From Planctomycetia bacterium (lineage in GTDB: Bacteria > Planctomycetota > Planctomycetia > Pirellulales > UBA1268), in assembly GCA_014192425.1 (NCBI GenBank), contig BJHK01000026.1:1-47333 (forward strand): a stretch of DNA of 47,333 nucleotides. The letters run 5' to 3'. Positions within the stretch are counted from its first letter, which is position 1. Each line of letters begins with the position of its first letter. The notes beneath the pieces were generated by a model, which saw only the letters and a program-made list of their open reading frames with translations, did no database searches and was not told where the DNA came from. The position numbers were made by a program, and so were the translations under genes. Shown here one piece after another: positions 1,936-14,270 of this stretch.

Positions 1936-1944
1936 CGCCGCACC

Positions 1945-4149
<2,205 letters not shown>

Positions 4150-4219: not shown

Positions 4220-4738
4220 ATGCTTCGCCCCTCCTTTCTCGTTCGCCCGTCCTTCCCCTGCGTCGTCGCCGTCGGCATGGTCTGCGTCGGCTGCGCTCCC
4301 GCGCCGGCCCCCGTAAAGCCCGCCGCCAGCCAGGGGCAGAAGGCCACACACGACGATCATCACCACGGCCACGGTCATGAGGACCATGCCCATCCGGAGA
4401 CCCTGGCGGCCGGCCTCGCGGAGCTCGAGGGGATCGCGACGGCCGTCAAGACGCACCTCGACGCCGGTGCCCGGGACAAGGCCGACAAGGCGGTCCACAT
4501 GGTCGGGCATCTGGTTGAGGATCTGCGTGGTCTCCTGCCGAAAGAGAATCTGTCGGCCGAGGCACAGGCGGCGGCCGGCAAGGCGCTCGACGAGATTTTT
4601 GACGCCTTCGACACGCTCGATGTCGCGTTGCACGCGGCCGAGGGAAAGTCGAAGCCGCCGGCCGAGGTCCATGCCTCGGTGGCGGAGAAGATCAACGCCG
4701 CGATCAAGACCCTGAAGGGACTCAAGGAGGGACCGTGA
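4220..4738 (+). CDS. His-rich exported lipoprotein
   Basis: The 172-aa product has a signal peptide with a lipobox-like ending (VGMVCVGC, Cys about residue 24), so it is probably lipid-anchored outside the cytoplasm. Directly after it comes a His/Asp cluster (HDDHHHGHGHEDHAH), which suggests divalent-metal binding, then a helical region (about 60-172) rich in Ala, Leu, Lys and Glu with no family I recognise. GGAGA eight bases upstream supports the ATG at 4220. Its stop overlaps the GTG start of the next gene (GTGA), so the two are translationally coupled. It is the first gene of a four-gene run with the exported CxxC protein, DUF1802 and YIP1 genes. Metal handling is inferred only from composition. 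Confidence 0.75.
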   Translation: MLRPSFLVRPSFPCVVAVGMVCVGCAPAPAPVKPAASQGQKATHDDHHHGHGHEDHAHPETLAAGLAELEGIATAVKTHLDAGARDKADKAVHMVGHLVEDLRGLLPKENLSAEAQAAAGKALDEIFDAFDTLDVALHAAEGKSKPPAEVHASVAEKINAAIKTLKGLKEGP

Positions 4739-5274
4739 ACGGACGAATTTCCCGCCGTGTGTTCGGCTCGTCGTGCTGCCTGCTGCTCGGGGCCTGCGGT
4801 GCGCTGGTTTCGGCCGCGGCCCCCGACGCGGTCGCGGTCCGCAAGCAACTCCTCCTCGACGCCGAGCCGCAGGGGGCCCTGTCGCTCACGGCCGCCAAGG
4901 AGAAGCTCACCACCACGCCGCAGCCTGTGGTGATCGCGGGCCGGATCGGCGCCAAGGGGATGGACCCGTTCCTGGCGGGCAAGGCGTCGTTTTCCCTGCT
5001 CGAGATTCCGGACGACGATCATGCCTCCAAGCCGGGCCACGACGACGACAACTGCCCGTTCTGCAAGAAGCGGGCCGCCAAGGCCCCGATCGCGGCGGTG
5101 CAGTTCGTGGGGGCCGACGGCAAGCCGATCCCCATGGACGCACGGGAGTTGTTCGGCGTGGCCAAGGGAAGCGACGTCGTGATCCGCGGCAGCGCGGTCT
5201 TCGATCCGAAGCTCGGCATCCCGGTGCTGCAGGTCACGGCCGAGGGCATTCACGTCCGCAAGCCGGCCAAATGA
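4735..5274 (+). CDS. Exported protein with CPFC motif, possible OB-fold
   Basis: The 179-aa product starts with GTG inside the stop of the preceding lipoprotein gene. The first ~28 residues (SRRVFGSS plus a hydrophobic stretch ending in VSAAAP) look like a signal sequence, possibly twin-arginine type. The rest alternates short beta-like segments (VVIAGRIG, FSLLEIPDDD, IAAVQFVGADGKPI, DVVIRGSAVFD, IPVLQVTAEGIHV) reminiscent of an OB-fold; this is a visual judgement. A CPFCKKR motif about residue 104 sits after a His/Asp-rich loop (DDDHASKPGHDDDN), so zinc binding or a redox dithiol is plausible. It ends in ATGA overlap with the DUF1802 gene. No specific function can be assigned. Confidence 0.72.
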   Translation: MNGRISRRVFGSSCCLLLGACGALVSAAAPDAVAVRKQLLLDAEPQGALSLTAAKEKLTTTPQPVVIAGRIGAKGMDPFLAGKASFSLLEIPDDDHASKPGHDDDNCPFCKKRAAKAPIAAVQFVGADGKPIPMDARELFGVAKGSDVVIRGSAVFDPKLGIPVLQVTAEGIHVRKPAK

Positions 5275-5759
5275 CCGTGCCAGAGGACGTCCCCCGCGTC
5301 GCCTTCAAGGAGTGGGCGGCGATCTGCCGGGCCCTGGCGACCGGCCGGCAGGACGTGATCCTGCGCAAGGGCGGGATCGTCGAGCCGGGGGGCGGTTTTC
5401 GCCCCGACCATGCCCGGTTCCTCCTCCTGCCGACGTTCCTTCATCAGGCGCCCGACAGCCTGGTGCCCGAAGCGCGAGACCTGCTCGACGACATCGACGC
5501 CGACCGACCTGTGGAGGGGAGCGTCGTGCTGCGACACATGGCCACGGTCCATGCCGCGCGGCGGATCGTGCGGCTCGAGGATCTCGCCCCCTACCGATCG
5601 CGGCACGTCTGGTCCGACGCGGTCGTGGCCGAACGGTTCCACCGCTGGCAGGACGAGCTCCACGTGCTCGAGGTCGCCGTGGCACCGCTGGCCGAGCCGC
5701 TCGTCCTCCCCTGGCGGGACGCCTACGGCGGCTGCAAGTCGTGGGTCGACTTGGCGTGA
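5271..5759 (+). CDS. DUF1802 family protein
   Basis: The 162-aa cytoplasmic protein shows the DUF1802 signature: FKEWAAICRALATGRQDVILRKGGIVE near the N-terminus, followed by RFLLLPTFLHQ and, near the end, the EPLVLPWRDAYGGCKSWVDL block. The family occurs in archaea and bacteria and has no established biochemical role. The ATG at 5271 overlaps the TGA of the exported CxxC protein (ATGA), which indicates coupled translation with an exported protein although this product has no signal peptide. Its own stop is 58 bases before the YIP1-like gene. Confidence 0.82.
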   Translation: MTVPEDVPRVAFKEWAAICRALATGRQDVILRKGGIVEPGGGFRPDHARFLLLPTFLHQAPDSLVPEARDLLDDIDADRPVEGSVVLRHMATVHAARRIVRLEDLAPYRSRHVWSDAVVAERFHRWQDELHVLEVAVAPLAEPLVLPWRDAYGGCKSWVDLA

Positions 5760-5817
5760 TGCGGGCCGGTATGCTCCCGTCACCCCCCTGCCCAGTGGGT
5801 GCACAGGAGCAAGACCC

Positions 5818-6546
5818 GTGAGCGATCCCAGCGACCAGTTCGATGCCGTCAATCCGTTTGCCGCGCCGCAGGCCAACGACTTGTTGCCCCCACCGGCGAG
5901 CGGCGACGAGGAAGGACTGCCGTTCCAGCCCTTCCGCACGATCTGGACGGCGCCCCGGCGGACGATTCGCCAGATCGTCCGCCGCAATCGATACCTGCAC
6001 GTGATTCCCCTGCTCTGCCTCGGCGGGGTGGCCCAGGCGCTCGAACGTGCTGCAAAGCGGAGTGTCGGTGACAGCATCGGGCCGCAGACGCTGTTCGCGA
6101 TCATCGTCTTCCTCGGCCCCCTCGGCGGCCTGTTCGGTGGCTGGTTGGTAGCGATGCTCCTGCGGGTCTCCGGCGGCTGGATCGGCGGCCGGGCGGACTT
6201 CACCCGACTTCAGGCGGCTGTTGCCTGGTCCTCGCTGCCCAAGATTGTCGGCCTGGCACTCTGGCTTCCGCTGATCGCACTTCTCGGAATGCGGGCATTT
6301 ACCTCCGTGCAGTTCCAGGTCGAGTCAGCGCCAACTCTCGTCGGAGTCGTGCTCGCAATGAGCGTGGCGCTGCTCGTGCTATCCATCTGGGGCCTCGTGC
6401 TCCTCTGCAACACGGTCGCGGAGGTGCAGGGCTTCCGGTCGGCATGGGCGGGCCTGGGCAACGTTCTTCTCGCCGTCCTGCTCCTCATCGTCCCGCTTAT
6501 CGCCATCGTGATGATGGCGGTGGGGATCGGCGTGATCACGAGTTGA
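5818..6546 (+). CDS. YIP1-like multi-pass membrane protein
   Basis: The 242-aa product has a soluble N-terminus of about 50 residues rich in Pro, Asp and Glu, then RTIWTAPRRTIRQIV, which matches the entry helix of YIP1-domain proteins (DUF1282-like). About five hydrophobic segments follow (roughly residues 63-76, 95-124, 150-172, 183-206 and 218-240). Bacterial YIP1 proteins are inner-membrane proteins of unknown role. The start is GTG at 5818, backed by AGGAG eight bases upstream; a longer open frame extending to 5410 overlaps DUF1802 and is a shadow. A TATGCT at 5770-5775 could be a separate -10, so it may be transcribed both with and independently of the preceding three genes. Confidence 0.75.
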   Translation: MSDPSDQFDAVNPFAAPQANDLLPPPASGDEEGLPFQPFRTIWTAPRRTIRQIVRRNRYLHVIPLLCLGGVAQALERAAKRSVGDSIGPQTLFAIIVFLGPLGGLFGGWLVAMLLRVSGGWIGGRADFTRLQAAVAWSSLPKIVGLALWLPLIALLGMRAFTSVQFQVESAPTLVGVVLAMSVALLVLSIWGLVLLCNTVAEVQGFRSAWAGLGNVLLAVLLLIVPLIAIVMMAVGIGVITS

Positions 6547-6568: not shown

Positions 6569-7666
6569 CTATCTCACGACCCGGGCGCCGCCACCCTCGA
6601 TGAGCTTCTCGACCTCGGCGCGGATGGCCATCGAGGTGTCGCCCGGCGTCGTGCTCGCCAGCGCGCCGTGGGCGGCGCCGTACTCGACGGCTTTCTGCGG
6701 GCAGTTGAACTCCAGGAACCCGAACGCCAGGCCGCTGGCAAAACTGTCGCCGCCGCCGACGCGGTCGAGGATCTCCAGTTCGGGATACTTCCGGCTGTCG
6801 TAAAACTTCCCCTCGTGCCAGCAGATCGCGCTCCAGTCATTCTTCGTCGCCGTGATCACCCGGCGCAGCGTCGTCGCCGCCACCTTGAAGTTGGGAAACT
6901 CCCTGACCGCTGTCTCGATCATGCGTTTGAAGGCATCGGTCTCGATCGTGCTCAGAGCATGGTCCACGCCCGCCACCTCGAACCCGAGCGACGCCGTGAA
7001 GTCCTCCTCGTTGCCGATCATCACGTCCACGTGCCGGGCGATCTCCCGGTTCACCGCGCGGGCCTTGGCCTGGCCGCCGATGCTCTTCCACAGGCTCGGC
7101 CGGTAGTTGAGGTCGTAGGAGACGATCGTGCCATGCCGCTTGGCCGCCTGCACCGCCTCGATCGTCAGGGCCGCCGTCGTCTCCGACAGGGCCGCGAAGA
7201 TGCCGCCGGTGTGGAACCAGCGCACGCCGAGCTCGCCGAACAGCCTGTTCCAGTCGACGTCGCCCGGCTTCATCTGGCTGGCCGCCGTGTTGCCCCGGTC
7301 CGGCACCCCCACCGCCCCGCGGATGCCGAAGCCGCGCTCGGTGAAGTTCAGCCCGTTGCGGACCGTCCGGCCGATGCCGTCGTCCGGCCGCCAGTGGATG
7401 AAATCGGTCGACACGCCCCCCTGCATGATGAAGTCCTCGACGAGGTGCCCGACCTCGTTGTCGACGAAGGCCGTCACGACGGCGGTCTTCAGGCCGAAGC
7501 ACTTCCGCAGGCCGCGGGCCACGTTGTATTCACCCCCGCCCTCCCAGACGGTGAACTCCCGGGCCGTGCGGATCCGCCCCTCGCCCGGGTCGAGCCGGAG
7601 CATGATCTCACCGAGCGAGACCTCGTCGAAGCTGCATGAGTCCTTGGGCTTGAGGGGGAGCGGCAT
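6569..7666 (-). CDS. kdgK: PfkB-family sugar kinase, probably 2-keto-3-deoxygluconate kinase
   Basis: The 365-aa ribokinase-fold kinase has the glycine-rich sugar-binding region near the N-terminus (EGGGEYNVARGL), the central SYDLNYRPSLW block typical of KDG kinases, and the C-terminal phosphotransfer/anion-hole motif DRVGGGDSFASGLAFGFL. The general base Asp is in the GGGD segment, where most family members have GAGD. The NYRPSLW motif is what favours 2-keto-3-deoxygluconate over ribose or fructose. Such kinases form KDPG-type phospho-sugar acids for aldol cleavage. AGGA about eight bases upstream supports the ATG at 7666. It lies downstream of the Ldh-family and D-2-hydroxyacid dehydrogenase genes on the same strand, which fits sugar-acid breakdown. 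Substrate remains inferred. Confidence 0.78.
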   Translation of the reverse strand: MPLPLKPKDSCSFDEVSLGEIMLRLDPGEGRIRTAREFTVWEGGGEYNVARGLRKCFGLKTAVVTAFVDNEVGHLVEDFIMQGGVSTDFIHWRPDDGIGRTVRNGLNFTERGFGIRGAVGVPDRGNTAASQMKPGDVDWNRLFGELGVRWFHTGGIFAALSETTAALTIEAVQAAKRHGTIVSYDLNYRPSLWKSIGGQAKARAVNREIARHVDVMIGNEEDFTASLGFEVAGVDHALSTIETDAFKRMIETAVREFPNFKVAATTLRRVITATKNDWSAICWHEGKFYDSRKYPELEILDRVGGGDSFASGLAFGFLEFNCPQKAVEYGAAHGALASTTPGDTSMAIRAEVEKLIEGGGARVVR

Positions 7667-7937: not shown

Positions 7938-9026
7938 TCACGCCGTCTTCAGGCTGGCGATGTCGAGCGGAGGCAGGGCGGCTTCTGCAGCGATGTGATT
8001 GAGGGCCTCGACCTCGGCCGTCGAGAACAGCAGGCCCCCGGCCCGCCAGGTCCGCGCCGCCGCGTCGGCCTCCAACTGGCCGGGAAGCATGCAGCCCTCG
8101 TTGCCGTGGCCGAGAATGTCGCCGAGCACGGCCTTGACGTTCTCCACCTGCGAGCGGCCGGCCGCGAACACCCCCGCAGACAGGGCGTCGGGATGGATCA
8201 CCTGGAAGAAAAACGCGCATGACTGCTTCTCGCCCGGCACGGCCGTCCGGCTGCGGATCGTGGGGAGCGAGCCGCCGATGAAGGCCGCGACGAGCTCGTT
8301 GATCAGCGACAGGCCGTAGCCCTTGTGGTCGCCAAAGGGAAGGAGCGAAGCCGCCTGCGCCGGATCGGTCGTCGGCCGCCCCTCGCGGTCGACGGCCGCA
8401 TTCGCCGGCAGTTGCTTCCCTTCGCGGGCGAGCTGCTGCACGCGGCCCATCGCGATCACCGACGTGGCCCAGTCGATCACGATCGGATAGCCGACCGCTG
8501 CCGTCGTGGGAAAACCCCACGAGTGCGGGTTCGTTCCCAGCGTGGGACAGCGGCCCTTGAAGGGAACGACCTCGGCGAGCGAAGCCGTGCAATTCGTGTA
8601 GGCGATGTAACCGCGGTTCGCCGCCTCCATCACGTAGCCCCCGCCCCACAGGTAGTGGAAGGCGTTGTCCACCGACACCGTCCCCGAGCCGTGCCGGTCG
8701 GCGAGCTGGATGCAGGTCTCGATCGCCTCCCAGGCCACGGCCTGGCCGAGCTTCTTTCCGGCGTCCCAGACCTCGCAGGCGTCGAACCGGCTCGGCAGCC
8801 GCCGGATCGCGGCCCGCGGTACGCAGCCACCGGCCTTCGAGCCGAAGAGCTCGTCGAGGTGCAGGGCCTTGATCGCGTTGTGGGTGCGGATGCCGTGGGT
8901 GGTGGCGGCCGTGGCCAGCTTCGCGGCCTGCTCGGCCTCGACGGCGTCGAAGCCGCGGTGCAGGTAGGCCCCGCGGACGATCTCCTCGTGCCGCTCGACC
9001 GGGACGACGTGGAATGTTTCGGCCAT
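7938..9026 (-). CDS. Ldh/malate dehydrogenase-family NAD(P)H oxidoreductase
   Basis: The 362-aa product belongs to the type-2 malate/L-lactate dehydrogenase family, which includes 2,3-diketo-L-gulonate reductase, ureidoglycolate dehydrogenase and L-sulfolactate dehydrogenase. It is a family with a non-Rossmann fold. Visible blocks are THGIRTHN near residue 50, NCTASLAEVVPFKGR, LGTNPHSWGFP, and FGDHKGYGLSLINELVAAFIGG, which together form the cofactor and substrate site (conserved His in THGIRTHN). GGGGAG about nine bases upstream fits the start at 9026. It lies 51 bases after the D-2-hydroxyacid dehydrogenase gene and before the KDG-kinase-like gene, so a keto-acid/hydroxy-acid substrate in sugar-acid catabolism is likely. 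The exact substrate cannot be read from the sequence. Confidence 0.85.
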   Translation of the reverse strand: MAETFHVVPVERHEEIVRGAYLHRGFDAVEAEQAAKLATAATTHGIRTHNAIKALHLDELFGSKAGGCVPRAAIRRLPSRFDACEVWDAGKKLGQAVAWEAIETCIQLADRHGSGTVSVDNAFHYLWGGGYVMEAANRGYIAYTNCTASLAEVVPFKGRCPTLGTNPHSWGFPTTAAVGYPIVIDWATSVIAMGRVQQLAREGKQLPANAAVDREGRPTTDPAQAASLLPFGDHKGYGLSLINELVAAFIGGSLPTIRSRTAVPGEKQSCAFFFQVIHPDALSAGVFAAGRSQVENVKAVLGDILGHGNEGCMLPGQLEADAAARTWRAGGLLFSTAEVEALNHIAAEAALPPLDIASLKTA

Positions 9027-9077: not shown

Positions 9078-10061
9078 TCAGACCACGCGGCGCACCGGCA
9101 CCGCGGGATTGACCTGGGCGAGCGGCGGCTCGCCGTGCATGGCGCGGATCAGATTCGTGACCGCGGCCATGGCCTGCCGCTGCACGCTTTCCAGCGTCCG
9201 CGACCCGACGTGCGGCGTGACGATGCAGTTCGGCAGGCCGGTGAGCGGATGGTCGGCCGGGGGCGGCTCGACGTCGAGGACGTCGGTGCCGTAGCCGCGG
9301 ACGCGGCCCGCGCGGAGCGCGGCCGCCATGTCGGCCGAATTGACGATCTCGCCGCGGGCGCAGTTGATGACGATCACGTCCGGCCTCATCCTCGCGATCG
9401 TCTCGGCGCGGACCAAGTCGCGGGTTTCCGGCGTCAGGTTCGTGTGCAGAGACACGTACTCCGCCGCGGCGAACAGGTCGTCCAGCGTCGTCGCCCGCTC
9501 GATCCCGTTGGCGGACGCGAAGGCGTCGTCCCAGTACAGGTCGTAGCCGATCGGCCGCATCCCGAAGGCCCGGGCCCGCAGCGCGACCTCACGGCCGATC
9601 CGTCCCATGCCAACGATGCCGATGCGCTTGCCGAGAAGTTCCCGCCCCGTCTGCCGCTTCCAGCTGCCGGCCCGGGTCGAGTCGACGTGAAACAGGAAGT
9701 TCTTCTCCAGCGCCAAGAGGAGCAGGAAGGCGTGCTCGGCGACGGTCGTGTGGTTGACGCCCGGCGTGAACAGCACGGGGATGCCGAACTCCGTGCAGGC
9801 GGCGACGTCGATCTTGTCGACGCCGATGCCGTACTTGCTCACCACCCGCAGCCGGGGCCGGGCCTTCTCCAGGACGGCCCGCGTGATCTGGTCATCGCCG
9901 CAGATCGTGGCATCGACGTCGCCGACGAGGGCCGCCGTGTCCGCCTCGGAGAGCGGCCCCCGGGCCGTGACGATCTCCCAGCCGGTCGCCGCCAGCGCGG
10001 CGTGATGCTCGCCAGGGGTGTCCTGGAACGACGTCGTGGTCAGCAGGATGCGCGGTTTCAT
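9078..10061 (-). CDS. D-2-hydroxyacid dehydrogenase (PGDH-like)
   Basis: The 327-aa NAD-dependent dehydrogenase has the complete family signature: Rossmann motif GMGRIG (151-156), catalytic Arg236 in NCARGEIV, Glu265 in DVEPPPADHPL, and His284 in TPHVGSRT. The N-terminal substrate-binding half contains SKYGIGVDKID, a phosphoglycerate dehydrogenase-like block. At this length it lacks the ACT regulatory domain of many SerA proteins, so glyoxylate/hydroxypyruvate reduction or another 2-hydroxyacid is as likely as 3-phosphoglycerate. It is the first gene of the minus-strand trio with the Ldh-family oxidoreductase and KDG-kinase-like gene. A TACCTT element near 10096 could be the promoter -10. Confidence 0.85.
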   Translation of the reverse strand: MKPRILLTTTSFQDTPGEHHAALAATGWEIVTARGPLSEADTAALVGDVDATICGDDQITRAVLEKARPRLRVVSKYGIGVDKIDVAACTEFGIPVLFTPGVNHTTVAEHAFLLLLALEKNFLFHVDSTRAGSWKRQTGRELLGKRIGIVGMGRIGREVALRARAFGMRPIGYDLYWDDAFASANGIERATTLDDLFAAAEYVSLHTNLTPETRDLVRAETIARMRPDVIVINCARGEIVNSADMAAALRAGRVRGYGTDVLDVEPPPADHPLTGLPNCIVTPHVGSRTLESVQRQAMAAVTNLIRAMHGEPPLAQVNPAVPVRRVV

Positions 10062-10151: not shown

Positions 10152-11465
10152 CTACAGTCCGCGCAGCGGACCGGCGCTGTCGCCGAACGAGCGGGTGTCG
10201 AGGCCGTATCGGCCGGCGAGGGAGACGTACAGGTTGCAGAGCCGGCGGTCGGCCTCGGGCTCGCGGGCGAAGGTCAGCGTGCGGCCCGTGCGGAGCGTAC
10301 CTCCGAGCCCGCCGGCGAGGAGGACGGGCATCTCGGTGCGATCGTGAACCCCTCCCGCCATCAGGCTGGAGCAGAACATGATGCACGAATTGTCGAGGAC
10401 GCTTCCCTCCCCCTCCTGCATGCCCTGCAGCCTGCGTACGAGCGCCGCGTACATCTCCACGTGGAACCGGTTCATCAAGGCGTAGTCCGGTCCGCCGGCG
10501 TGCGACATGCCGTGCATGTTGGTGAGGTCCGTGCTCCCCGGACGGAGGAAACCGAAGTCCATCCGGGAAAGATCGTTGTTGAACATCAGCGTGGCGAACC
10601 GCGTGGCATCGGTGGCAAGTGCGATGGCCAGCAGGTCGAGCATCAGCCGCATGTGGTCGGGCAGCGCGGCCGGCGCATCGGCGGACGGCGGCTGGATGAG
10701 CGCGGCGACCCGCGAACCGGGCCCGGCACCATCCGCCGGGAGCCTCGCCAGCCGCTGCTCGACCTCGCGGACGCTCGCCAGGTATTCGTCGAGCCGCTGC
10801 CGGTCCCAGGCGCTCAACTCAGGAAGGATGCCCCGGGCATCCTCGCGAACGAGGTCCAGGGCGCTAATCGCCTTGCGGATTCCGCGCGGATCGCCGACGA
10901 GCCGGTCGTAGAGCCCGCGCGGGGTGTTCTCACGCGGCACGGGCGTCTGCGGCGTGCTCCAGGAGATGTGGCCACTGTAGATGCAGGAATAGCCCTTGTG
11001 CGTGCCCAGGGTCGGCGGCTCGATGCCGAGCACGAGGCTGGGAAACGGCGTCGTGGCCCCGAGTTCCCCGGCCAGCAGTTGGTCGAAGCTCGTGCCGACT
11101 AGCAGGTCCGATGTGCTTTCGCGGACATGGGCCCCGGAGAGCACGTTCGGTGCGGCCGCGATGTGGATGTTGCCCCTGAGCGCCTGGGGGTTGTAGAGGC
11201 CCTCGAGCACGAGCAGCCGCTCCTTGAGGTCCTCGAGCGGCTGCAGTGATCCGCCGAGCACCATTTTCGGCCCGTCGCCCGTCGCCCCCCACTGCGCCGG
11301 ATCGACGCCATTGGCCATGAACAGGCAGGCGAAGCGGCGTGGCGTCTGGGGTGCCGACTCCCGGGCCAGCGCCGTCCGCCGGGCCGCGACCGACTCCAGC
11401 CACGGCAGGCCGAGCGTGACTCCCATGCCGCGCAGGAATGTCCGGCGTTCGGTCTTGCCTGTCAT
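10152..11465 (-). CDS. DUF1552 family exported protein
   Basis: The 437-aa product begins with a twin-arginine-like leader (TERRTFLRGMGVTLGLPWLES), then the DUF1552 blocks RRFACLFMANGVDPAQW, YSCIYSGHISW, LMLDLLAIALATDATRFATLMFNND, HGMSHAGG and the C-terminal LAGGLGGTLRTGRTL and LCNLYVSLAGRYG. DUF1552 proteins are very common in planctomycetes, related in layout to DUF1501, and are encoded beside DUF1592 cytochrome-like proteins; function is unestablished. The ATG at 11465 overlaps the TGA of the upstream DUF1592 gene (ATGA), so the pair is translationally coupled. A longer open frame to 11795 would run inside the neighbour and is rejected. Confidence 0.9.
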   Translation of the reverse strand: MTGKTERRTFLRGMGVTLGLPWLESVAARRTALARESAPQTPRRFACLFMANGVDPAQWGATGDGPKMVLGGSLQPLEDLKERLLVLEGLYNPQALRGNIHIAAAPNVLSGAHVRESTSDLLVGTSFDQLLAGELGATTPFPSLVLGIEPPTLGTHKGYSCIYSGHISWSTPQTPVPRENTPRGLYDRLVGDPRGIRKAISALDLVREDARGILPELSAWDRQRLDEYLASVREVEQRLARLPADGAGPGSRVAALIQPPSADAPAALPDHMRLMLDLLAIALATDATRFATLMFNNDLSRMDFGFLRPGSTDLTNMHGMSHAGGPDYALMNRFHVEMYAALVRRLQGMQEGEGSVLDNSCIMFCSSLMAGGVHDRTEMPVLLAGGLGGTLRTGRTLTFAREPEADRRLCNLYVSLAGRYGLDTRSFGDSAGPLRGL

Positions 11466-14233
11466 GGCTGGCTCTCTCCGGGGGACGTGGCGGGCTCGAA
11501 CCGCAGACTGGCGAACTGGGCGCTGGTCACGATGCCTTCGATGATCGTCGAAAACCGGCCGTCCGTCGACCACAGACGGTCCTCGATCGCATCCAGCAGC
11601 GGGCGGTCGCCGGGCTGCACGCTGCGGCCGAGGGCGTAACCCAGCAGTTTGCGACACAGCCGACGGACGAACAGCCGCTCCTGCCGCTCCTCGTTGAGGA
11701 AGGCGACCAGGCCGGCCATCCCCTCCAGCCGGCGCTCGTCGCCGAGGCGGGACGTGCTCTCGATCGGCCGCCCGTTGACGTCGTGGGTCCGCCACCGGCC
11801 GACGGGATCGAAATTCTCCAACGCGATCCCGAGCGGGTCGATCCGCTCGTGACAGGCGGAGCAGGCGGCGTCCGCGCGGTGCTTGGCCAGCAGTTGGGCG
11901 ACGGTCTGGCCGGCCTCGTTGCGCTCGTCATCCGGCAGGTCGGGGACGCCCTCGGGGGGTGGAGGCGTGGGCATGCCGAGCAGTTCGGAGAGGATCCAGT
12001 TGCCGCGCAGCACCGGGCTCGTCCGCAGCGGATGCGACGTGGCCGTGAGCGCCGCGCCCCAGCCGAGCATGCCGCGGCGTGGCGTCCCGGCGAGCGACAT
12101 CCGCGGCCCCGTCACGACACCGTCCGGCTGGCCCACCTGAGCCGACCAGGCATCCTTGCCGGGCGGGCCGAGGTCGGTGAGCCCGTAGTGTTCGGCGAGT
12201 TGTCGCGACGGCAGGAAGGCGTAGTCCGCCCGGAGCAGGAGCCGCACGTCACGATCGTTCGCCACGAGGTCGGTACAGAAGTCGACCGCCTCCCCGTGCA
12301 TGGCCCTCCGCAGATCGGCGTCGAACATCGGAAACCGGTCGGCGTTCGGCCCGGAGAACTCGTCGAATCGGTAGAAGCCCAGCCACTGTCCGAAAAACTC
12401 GGCCGCGAACCGCCTGATTTTCGGATCGCGCAGCATTCGCCTGGCCACGGCAACGCGGCCGGCGGGATCGGCAAGGTCGCCGCGGTCCGCCGCCGCACGG
12501 ACCGCCTCGTCCGGCGGCGAAGACCAGAGGAAGTACGACAGCCGGGCTGCCAGCTCGTGGGCGCCGAGCGGGCGAATCGCGCTAGGCTGGTCGGGCCGCG
12601 GGCTGATGCCGCGCTCGATGCGATAGAGGAAGTTCGGCGACATGAACAGGTGCACGAGCGTCTCCTGCACCGCTTCCGTGAGCGTCTGGCCATCAGCGAC
12701 GGCGGCGTCACAGCGGGCGATCAGTTCGGACGCTTCCCGGTCGGAGAGCGGCCGTCGCCAGACCCGGGTGGCGAACTCGACGAGTGACTCTCGACAGGCC
12801 GCACGGACCTGGTCGCGCCACACCGTCGCACGCTCGTCCAACTCCCGCCATTCGGCCTGCATCCCCTCCGGAGGCGTCTTTCCCAGCCGCCGCGCCAGAT
12901 CGCTCCGCGGATCGCAGGCCAGTCGCCAGACGGCCTCGAGCTGCTCGTCGCTGAGGAAGGCGTGAAGAAACGCGTCGAAGGCGTCGTGATTGGGGGCCAT
13001 CGTCCCCATGCTCTCGCCATCCGCCGAGTTCTGAATGTTTTCGTAGTCGGCGAGCTCGGCGGCCGAGAAGCCGCGCACCTCGCGGATCAGCCCGGCCAGC
13101 GACATCACCGTGAACGACAGGTCGGCGGGCACCGCGAGCGGCCGCTCCCCCTTCCAGGCGGCGATCCGGGCCTCGAACTCCGGGTTGTCGCCGACGGCGT
13201 AGGGCTGGAACGAGAGCCAGCGGTGAAGCAGCGACACCTTGAACGGCCTGGCATACCCGGTGGTGTGCCGCAGGTCGAGCCAGAGCCGCTCCCAGTGCCG
13301 CGCGGCGTCCGCGTCGGCAGCCTGCCCGGCGATCGTCTTCAGCGTTCCCTGCGGCACGGCGAAGGTCTGCGGTGACGGGCAGAGCCGCTCGTTGCGGTAG
13401 AACAAACGGAACGAGGTGAGGAGGAACTGCAGCGGATCCCCCGGCCGCTTGGCTGCATAGGGCTTGTAGCCCTGGAGTCCGGTCTTGGAAAAGTCGAGCG
13501 TCGGCCGCTTCCCCTGCGGATAGGCGTAGCTCATCAACTGCTCCGCGGGAGTGGCGTCCTCGTAGCCGACCCTGCGGGCGGTGCAGAATGCGTCGAGACG
13601 CTCCAGCGCCAGTCGCGGCCATTCGGCCGCCGTCGTCGGAGCGGGGGTGAATGTCGGACCGCTGGCGGGAAAGACGACGGCCGCGGATGCGAGCCGCTGG
13701 GCCAGGTCGAGGTACTTCTCAATCTGGCCGGCGGACATCTGCAGCGTCTGACCGGTGTTGGAAAACCCCTCGCCACCGCTGCCATCCCGGGGCAGGTCCC
13801 GGGCCCAGTCGCGGGCGAAGCCGGTGAGATCGGCCAGCGTGTAGTTGAGTTCGGCGTTGGTCAGGCGCCGCACGACCACCCGACCGGGGTCGCCGGCCTG
13901 GGCACGGGCCGCGGCGTCGATGCGATCCTCGAGCCAAGCGACGATCGTCCGCCGATCGGCCGCGGGCATCGGCTCCGGGGCATCCCCCGGCGGCATGAAC
14001 CCCTCGCCCACCACCTCGAGAAGCGTCTCCACGAGCGGACCGTCGGCGGCGAGCGCGGCACCGGTCTTGAACCGGGCCAGATCGACGTCCCCCTTGGCCG
14101 CCGCCCCGTCGTGGCAGGACTGGCAATGCCGTCGCAACAGCGGCCCCACGACCGTATCGAAATCGGGCGCCGCGGCGAAGGTCGACCGCACGACGCAGAC
14201 CGCGACGACCAGCACGGGAACAAGGCGGCTCAT
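11462..14233 (-). CDS. DUF1592-family exported cytochrome-like protein (DUF1587/1592/1595/1588/1585)
   Basis: The product is about 923 aa with a short signal peptide (residues 1-21). A PSCyt-type c-heme motif CQSCH (37-41) is followed by GFMPPGD and the DUF1587 region (RRLTNAELNYTLADLTG). The middle holds DUF1592/1595 blocks (LVHLFMSPNFLYRIE, LAARLSYFLWSSPPDEAV), then DUF1588 with a second CxxCH (CSACHERIDPLGIALENFDPVGRWR near residue 815), and DUF1585 at the end (LCRKLLGYALGR). This is the standard planctomycete architecture; the proteins are thought to be exported and their substrates are unknown. A TTG two codons upstream (14239) is an alternative start; no good ribosome binding site is visible for either. 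It is coupled to the DUF1552 gene by a 4-bp overlap. Confidence 0.9.
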   Translation of the reverse strand: MSRLVPVLVVAVCVVRSTFAAAPDFDTVVGPLLRRHCQSCHDGAAAKGDVDLARFKTGAALAADGPLVETLLEVVGEGFMPPGDAPEPMPAADRRTIVAWLEDRIDAAARAQAGDPGRVVVRRLTNAELNYTLADLTGFARDWARDLPRDGSGGEGFSNTGQTLQMSAGQIEKYLDLAQRLASAAVVFPASGPTFTPAPTTAAEWPRLALERLDAFCTARRVGYEDATPAEQLMSYAYPQGKRPTLDFSKTGLQGYKPYAAKRPGDPLQFLLTSFRLFYRNERLCPSPQTFAVPQGTLKTIAGQAADADAARHWERLWLDLRHTTGYARPFKVSLLHRWLSFQPYAVGDNPEFEARIAAWKGERPLAVPADLSFTVMSLAGLIREVRGFSAAELADYENIQNSADGESMGTMAPNHDAFDAFLHAFLSDEQLEAVWRLACDPRSDLARRLGKTPPEGMQAEWRELDERATVWRDQVRAACRESLVEFATRVWRRPLSDREASELIARCDAAVADGQTLTEAVQETLVHLFMSPNFLYRIERGISPRPDQPSAIRPLGAHELAARLSYFLWSSPPDEAVRAAADRGDLADPAGRVAVARRMLRDPKIRRFAAEFFGQWLGFYRFDEFSGPNADRFPMFDADLRRAMHGEAVDFCTDLVANDRDVRLLLRADYAFLPSRQLAEHYGLTDLGPPGKDAWSAQVGQPDGVVTGPRMSLAGTPRRGMLGWGAALTATSHPLRTSPVLRGNWILSELLGMPTPPPPEGVPDLPDDERNEAGQTVAQLLAKHRADAACSACHERIDPLGIALENFDPVGRWRTHDVNGRPIESTSRLGDERRLEGMAGLVAFLNEERQERLFVRRLCRKLLGYALGRSVQPGDRPLLDAIEDRLWSTDGRFSTIIEGIVTSAQFASLRFEPATSPGESQP

Positions 14234-14270
14234 AATCAATCAATAGTCGACGGGCAGCATGGCGTCCAAG

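Follow-up and report, generated by a model that had tools for sequence, protein, structure and literature searches.

A lipoprotein and OB-fold protein pair of Planctomycetia as a candidate extracytoplasmic zinc-capture module

Introduction

How planctomycete cells gather scarce metals is poorly known, while zinc-regulated exported zinc binders are, as a kind, already described. In the zinc-uptake system ZrgABCDE of Vibrio, ZrgC is the ATPase, ZrgB the permease and ZrgE a DUF3299 protein (PMC9817125). ZepA is a zinc-uptake exoprotein with experimental support (PMC10957091), and the motifs seen in its description are for cyanobacteria, proteobacteria and Luteolibacter, with none among them for planctomycetes; in our literature search on planctomycete Zur regulons, this study was the sole directly relevant find. 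Zur typically controls COG0523 genes and zinc importers (PMC6103462, PMC2770081).

Here we analyse four genes, A to D, in a window of 47,333 nucleotides from a Planctomycetia bacterium (contig BJHK01000026.1). Like ZrgABCDE, genes A and B would belong to a zinc-starvation regulon in which a zinc binder outside the cell is combined with an ABC ATPase, its permease and DUF3299; they differ in that neither is a DUF2796/ZrgA protein by HMM, and in that A-B usually lies apart from the ABC genes. The PF10986 (DUF2796, ZrgA) model did not match A or B of the window at E 1, and it matched weakly in 3 of 51 A homologues (best E 8e-4). ZepA, like A and B, is an exported protein; it has a His motif, belongs to the Zur regulon and is present in planctomycetes too (PMC10957091). 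However, there is no detectable sequence relation, and ZepA ends in PEP-CTERM, whereas A is a lipoprotein with a helical bundle and B has an OB-fold. Neither A nor B showed a PEP-CTERM match or the motif H-X2-9-H-F/Y-H. A flexible His-rich stretch in an exported protein also recalls the periplasmic zinc binders of the ZnuA/ZinT type, although A and B have no Pfam match to such families and are predicted to be a four-helix bundle and an OB-fold, respectively.

Results and Discussion

Locus layout

All that the initial annotation had listed is indeed present: the four genes, the GTGA and ATGA overlaps, the 58 bases between C and D, the His/Asp cluster and the CPFC motif (Table 1). B overlaps the stop of A by 4 nt (GTGA), C overlaps the stop of B by 4 nt (ATGA), and D follows C after 58 bases, while the flanking upstream gene, of the glycogen-debranching type, stops 70 nt before A. 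Searches of A and B against Pfam and NCBIfam returned no family above its cut-off, and both families appear undescribed in the libraries searched. On the minus strand downstream lie a PfkB sugar kinase (6569-7666), an Ldh_2 dehydrogenase (7938-9026), a 2-hydroxyacid dehydrogenase (9078-10061) and a large exported protein that has a CxxCH motif early in its sequence (11462-14239). Together these genes suggest sugar-acid metabolism, with no relation to A-B.

Table 1. Positions of the genes and protein features discussed, numbered from the first nucleotide of the window.
Feature	Position	Strand	Basis
Gene A, exported lipoprotein, 172 aa, His/Asp-rich linker and four-helix bundle (start ATG at 4220, TGA ends 4738)	4220-4738	+	Translation, homologues, AF2
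A, signal peptide and lipobox ending at Cys25	4220-4294	+	Cys in 51/51 homologues
A, His/Asp cluster, residues 44-58, HDDHHHGHGHEDHAH	4349-4393	+	Sequence
A, putative metal ligands D89, H93, H97, helix 2	4484-4510	+	Conservation, AF2 helix 85-108
A, putative metal ligands D134, H138, helix 3 and its end	4619-4633	+	Conservation
Gene B, exported OB-fold protein, 179 aa, CPFC loop (start GTG at 4735)	4735-5274	+	Translation, AF2, VIA-align
B, metal-type loop, residues 93-112 (H96, H102, D105, CPFCK 107-111), between OB strands 2 and 3	5011-5070	+	Conservation, AF2
Gene C, DUF1802, 162 aa, lineage-specific operon neighbour (start ATG at 5271)	5271-5759	+	Pfam PF08819, 142 bits, E 2e-41, above cut-off; adjacency counts
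Gene D, Yip1-domain membrane protein, 242 aa, private to the window's genome at that position (start GTG at 5818)	5818-6546	+	Pfam PF04893, 52.7 bits, E 6e-14, above cut-off
Glycogen-debranching-type enzyme (CBM48 and alpha-amylase), outside the system	1942-4149	+	Pfam

Conservation of the A-B pair

In a set of 40 genomes, made up of the window's own and those of relatives, homologues of A were found in 24, of B in 28 and of C in 20, so these genes are not chance open reading frames; D occurs in two, the window's own and one with an unlinked copy. A GTDB-wide scan for the CPFC motif, with one genome for each of 84,980 species, gave 80 B loci. Of these, 77 have room for an upstream A, and in 74 of them profile searches found A immediately before B. 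The three B loci without A (L257, L263, L267) belong to the Rhodopirellula group, and their upstream gene is glycosyltransferase-like. Across the phylum, full-length A was found in the same class, Planctomycetia, only, where B adjoins A in other families as well (G304, G063, G329, G126, G175, G232, G312). Short phylum-wide matches covering only residues 8-60 of the A query were discarded as His-rich low complexity.

DUF1802 follows B in 36 of the 46 loci with room in the window's family and in 0/29 elsewhere, and in G012 and G024 it lies on another contig than A-B. From these adjacency and homologue counts, A-B is the conserved unit, C a local neighbour and D private. The idea that all four genes are one functional envelope or metal module draws on the overlaps of A, B and C and on the persistence of C behind B within the family; it is largely refuted by the adjacency counts, namely the absence of C behind B outside the family, and by the single unlinked homologue of D in other genomes, and we regard it as very improbable. 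Judged by gene adjacency, the DUF1802 and Yip1 genes are bystanders to A-B. The conserved neighbourhood that the initial annotation had envisaged therefore holds for A-B, and for DUF1802 only in the window's family.

Gene A: lipoprotein with a His-rich arm

A has the predicted signal peptide and lipobox cysteine of a bacterial lipoprotein. Its lipobox is VGC with Cys25, and the cysteine is invariant (51/51, homologue starts having been picked relative to the lipobox, which bears on this count), with Gly before it in most homologues. The cluster HDDHHHGHGHEDHAH holds eight His, and the suspected His-rich character is kept in the 51 homologues, whose linker arm has a median of 8 His and a minimum of 2. 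The AF2 model, built with a 51-row alignment, shows a flexible N-terminal arm and then a four-helix bundle (helices 62-81, 85-108, 113-137 and 147-166; pLDDT about 98 over residues 60-166). Putative ligands on the bundle are strongly conserved, with D/H89, H93, D134 and H138 each present in 51/51 sequences and H97 in 42/51. By helix counting, H93/H97 and D134/H138 lie about 9-15 Angstrom apart along the axis, so that they may not form one site.

In fold comparison, A matched cytochrome b562 and PsbQ bundles with VIA Z 11.6-12.3 (12.3 for cytochrome b562), a range that is common among helical bundles by chance, and weak HMM matches were seen in 17/51 homologues for PsbQ and 4/51 for cytochrome b562; these proteins have the same up-down bundle as A, but another gene context. 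Sequence comparison of A with solved structures gave weak matches only, to designed bundles and low-complexity stretches. CnrX-type periplasmic sensors have a comparable HxxxH helical pattern, and A, as an exported helical protein whose successive helices carry HxxxH and DxxxH, recalls them; on this view A-B would sense or signal metal rather than carry zinc, with the bundle of A as the sensor and B as its partner. We consider this very unlikely, since A, a lipoprotein, has a long His arm and no Pfam sensor-family match, and no regulator or histidine-kinase gene was seen recurring beside A-B.

Gene B: OB-fold protein with a CPFC loop

B carries DDDHASKPGHDDDNCPFCKK. The structure prediction proposed earlier for this 179-aa protein gave an OB-fold, a five-strand barrel of beta1-2-3-alpha-beta4-5 topology (strands 63-71, 85-89, 119-125, 147-156 and 164-174; core pLDDT about 97; AF2 with alignment), and the best structural matches by VIA-align were OB-folds as well (Z 9.2, rmsd 3.3, 103 residues). 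In its five-strand topology B is like the OBody and the anticodon-binding domain of AspRS, from which it differs in being exported, in having a Cys/His loop between strands 2 and 3 and in the lack of a detectable sequence relation. In this loop, C107-P-F-C110-K111 is present in 52/52 sequences, H96 in 51/52 and H102 in 39/52. Searching solved structures by sequence gave no match to B, and DUF2946 (PF11162) reached 15.7 bits over the CPFC loop only, under its 23.7-bit cut-off.

Distant relatives of B, here B', have a CPxPWDYCC loop in which Cys replaces His in the alignment, an exchange that is common in metal sites. Their genes stand in operons of the order FtsX - B' - HlyD - ABC ATPase - FtsX. 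At loci L101-L106, L186 and L188-L190, B' sits between FtsX permease and HlyD-like genes in MacAB-like operons, and in G037 the B' operon is preceded by the palindromic box described below and by a Cys-rich exported protein.

A palindromic box and its predicted regulon in relatives

In several lineages, A-B or the operon that contains it stands behind a palindrome, WTGCAA-N5-TTGCAW. The A promoters of G175 and G232, which belong to the same genus, hold TTGCAACCCAATTGCAA. Genome-wide, G232 has a single copy of the exact form TTGCAA-N5-TTGCAA, and it lies upstream of A; G175 has two, one of them at the A promoter, and G190 has one, ahead of an ABC ATPase and FtsX permease. At least 11 of the 12 box positions were matched in 11 of 78 non-redundant A-upstream regions, where first-order shuffles predict about 0.1, and these 11 amount by our count to about seven independent lineages when related loci are merged.

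Genome-wide the box is rare (0-5 sites per genome in 20 genomes). In these first 20 genomes it precedes COG0523, ZIP, MerC, ABC-FtsX and a ZepA-like gene; an exact box (12/12) heads a MerC-A-B operon in G032, and at L098 B has an 11/12 box ahead of it. Thirty further genomes gave 52 box sites versus 9 for the reversed pattern, and there the box precedes COG0523, ZIP, ABC-FtsX, ZepA (G020, of the window's genus), a distant B' operon and also an A-like lipoprotein with an ArsP permease. ZepA-like genes with the box come from G175, G232 and G020, and in G027 and G243 the box lies upstream of the Fur-family regulator itself. In both genome sets together, 18/75 boxes have the start of a zinc-type gene within 350 nt, by a gene list that was set after the first genome set and before the second.

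Since the box stands on COG0523 and zinc importers, which are the standard Zur targets, and on ZepA, its regulator is most likely Zur, as the regulon content and the autoregulation-type sites suggest. The genes behind the box are, as predicted from their content, a zinc-starvation (Zur) regulon. The box also resembles the Nur (nickel) box of Streptomyces, tTGCaa-N5-ttGCAA, and this likeness leaves some room for nickel; in a non-systematic look, however, neither a nickel transporter nor a nickel superoxide dismutase was recognised behind the box.

Gene neighbourhoods and the probable direction of transport

In G063 (L180), COG0523 lies directly upstream of A-B. A Zrg-like ABC cluster, located via DUF3299, is found in G032 with the order COG0523 - B - ABC ATPase - FtsX - DUF3299 - Fur, so that B adjoins equivalents of Vibrio ZrgC, ZrgB and ZrgE (PMC9817125). 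By analogy, an exported zinc binder should occupy just this position beside the ABC genes.

The main rival to zinc capture is that A-B handles copper or nickel, or that it serves efflux or tolerance, with the arm and the CxxC loop buffering excess metal for an exporter of the ArsP/SO_0444 or RND type. A-like His-rich lipoproteins adjoin ArsP_1-type permeases at L196:5782-7933, L197:7277-9409 and L373:1346-1801, RND pumps (L095) and an HMA-type protein (L100) occur in the vicinity of B copies, and the ArsP-type permease and MerC neighbours could point to efflux, as the Nur likeness of the box could to nickel. Against this, the box precedes ZIP, ZepA, COG0523 and the Zrg-like ABC genes, which is a zinc-starvation set, and we judge the copper, nickel or efflux reading unlikely. 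At L196 and L197, MoxR-type ATPase genes lie near the pair of A-like lipoprotein and ArsP_1-type permease, a pairing that gives A-like proteins a second gene context.

The window's own genome

The Zur/Fur-type site suspected upstream of 4220 did not materialise in the window, where the best match to the box is 8/12, a background level, although such a site is present in several other lineages; most members of the window's genus likewise have no box at the A promoter. The window's genome has two Fur-family genes and one COG0523 gene, whose promoter carries TTGCAACGCTATTGCGT (11/12). Operators in this genome were checked in separate genome pieces and by exact pattern, and the exact pattern did not occur. 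A-B of the window could be constitutive, or it could be read through from the upstream gene.

The same genome holds a conserved Zrg-like cluster (L407:2021-6995, on G000:C21; also seen at L408, L411, L413 and L418) in the order ABC ATPase - FtsX permease - exported CPFC protein - DUF3299 - second DUF3299-like protein. No box precedes this ABC cluster in the window's genome (7/12).

Proposed function

Because A and B travel together, and because the box is often common to them and to zinc-uptake genes, they probably catch zinc outside the cell. With a probability of roughly 60%, we propose that A-B is an undescribed extracytoplasmic pair for capturing and buffering zinc, which would feed the importers of the same regulon. 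Of the undescribed metal-handling module that the initial annotation had suggested, the A-B part is thus supported by pairing, ligand conservation and the zinc-type regulon of relatives, and the part that included C and D fell to the adjacency counts. The pairing, the export signals, the predicted folds, the conserved ligands and the shared box are results, while we infer zinc as the metal from regulon and context; uptake as the direction, a hand-over within the pair and what the pair does in the window's genome are likewise interpretations.

In the proposed mechanism, A would be anchored to the membrane by its lipidated Cys25 and would offer both the flexible His/Asp arm and a metal site on the helical bundle (D/H89, H93, H97, D134, H138), while B, small, exported and OB-folded, would provide a second site through its H-H-C-C loop. 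In box-carrying lineages, zinc limitation would lead a Fur-family repressor (Zur) to release the operon, after which A and B may act between the membranes to capture zinc, buffer it and deliver it to the Zrg-like ABC and ZIP importers that belong to this regulon too. More tentatively, with the odds somewhat against it, A-B could be a hitherto undescribed zinc-acquisition module of Planctomycetia, in which the His-armed lipoprotein and its OB-fold partner replace ZrgA/ZnuA as external zinc binders. They would serve importers of the Zrg-like ABC and ZIP kinds, and their operator, WTGCAA-N5-TTGCAW, would be one not reported before.

If true, this would give a function to two class-wide conserved families with no Pfam or NCBIfam match, as well as an operator sequence for a planctomycete zinc regulator that is open to testing, with a predicted regulon of COG0523, ZIP, ZepA, MerC, ABC-FtsX, A-B and the regulator itself. 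Cultured relatives allow a direct test of this prediction.

Further genes behind the box

At box-centred loci, 16/75 boxes lie at most 350 nt upstream of DUF1559-like pseudopilin genes with the sequence RRGFTLIELLVVIAII (L307, L309, L313, L318, L319, L323, L344, L362, L370, L371, L374, L378, L380, L381, L384 and L385), compared with 0.13% of random positions in other loci, and these surface proteins may truly be under zinc control. Boxes also occur in pairs, 20-86 bases apart: ahead of a Fur-family regulator (L348:2016/2102), ahead of an operon with COG0523 (L363:2022/2067) and ahead of another gene (L341:2005/2025); such paired operators would fit autoregulation. QueC is a zinc enzyme family, and at L375:1209-1907 a box lies 63 nt upstream of a QueC-like gene of 7-deazaguanine synthesis.
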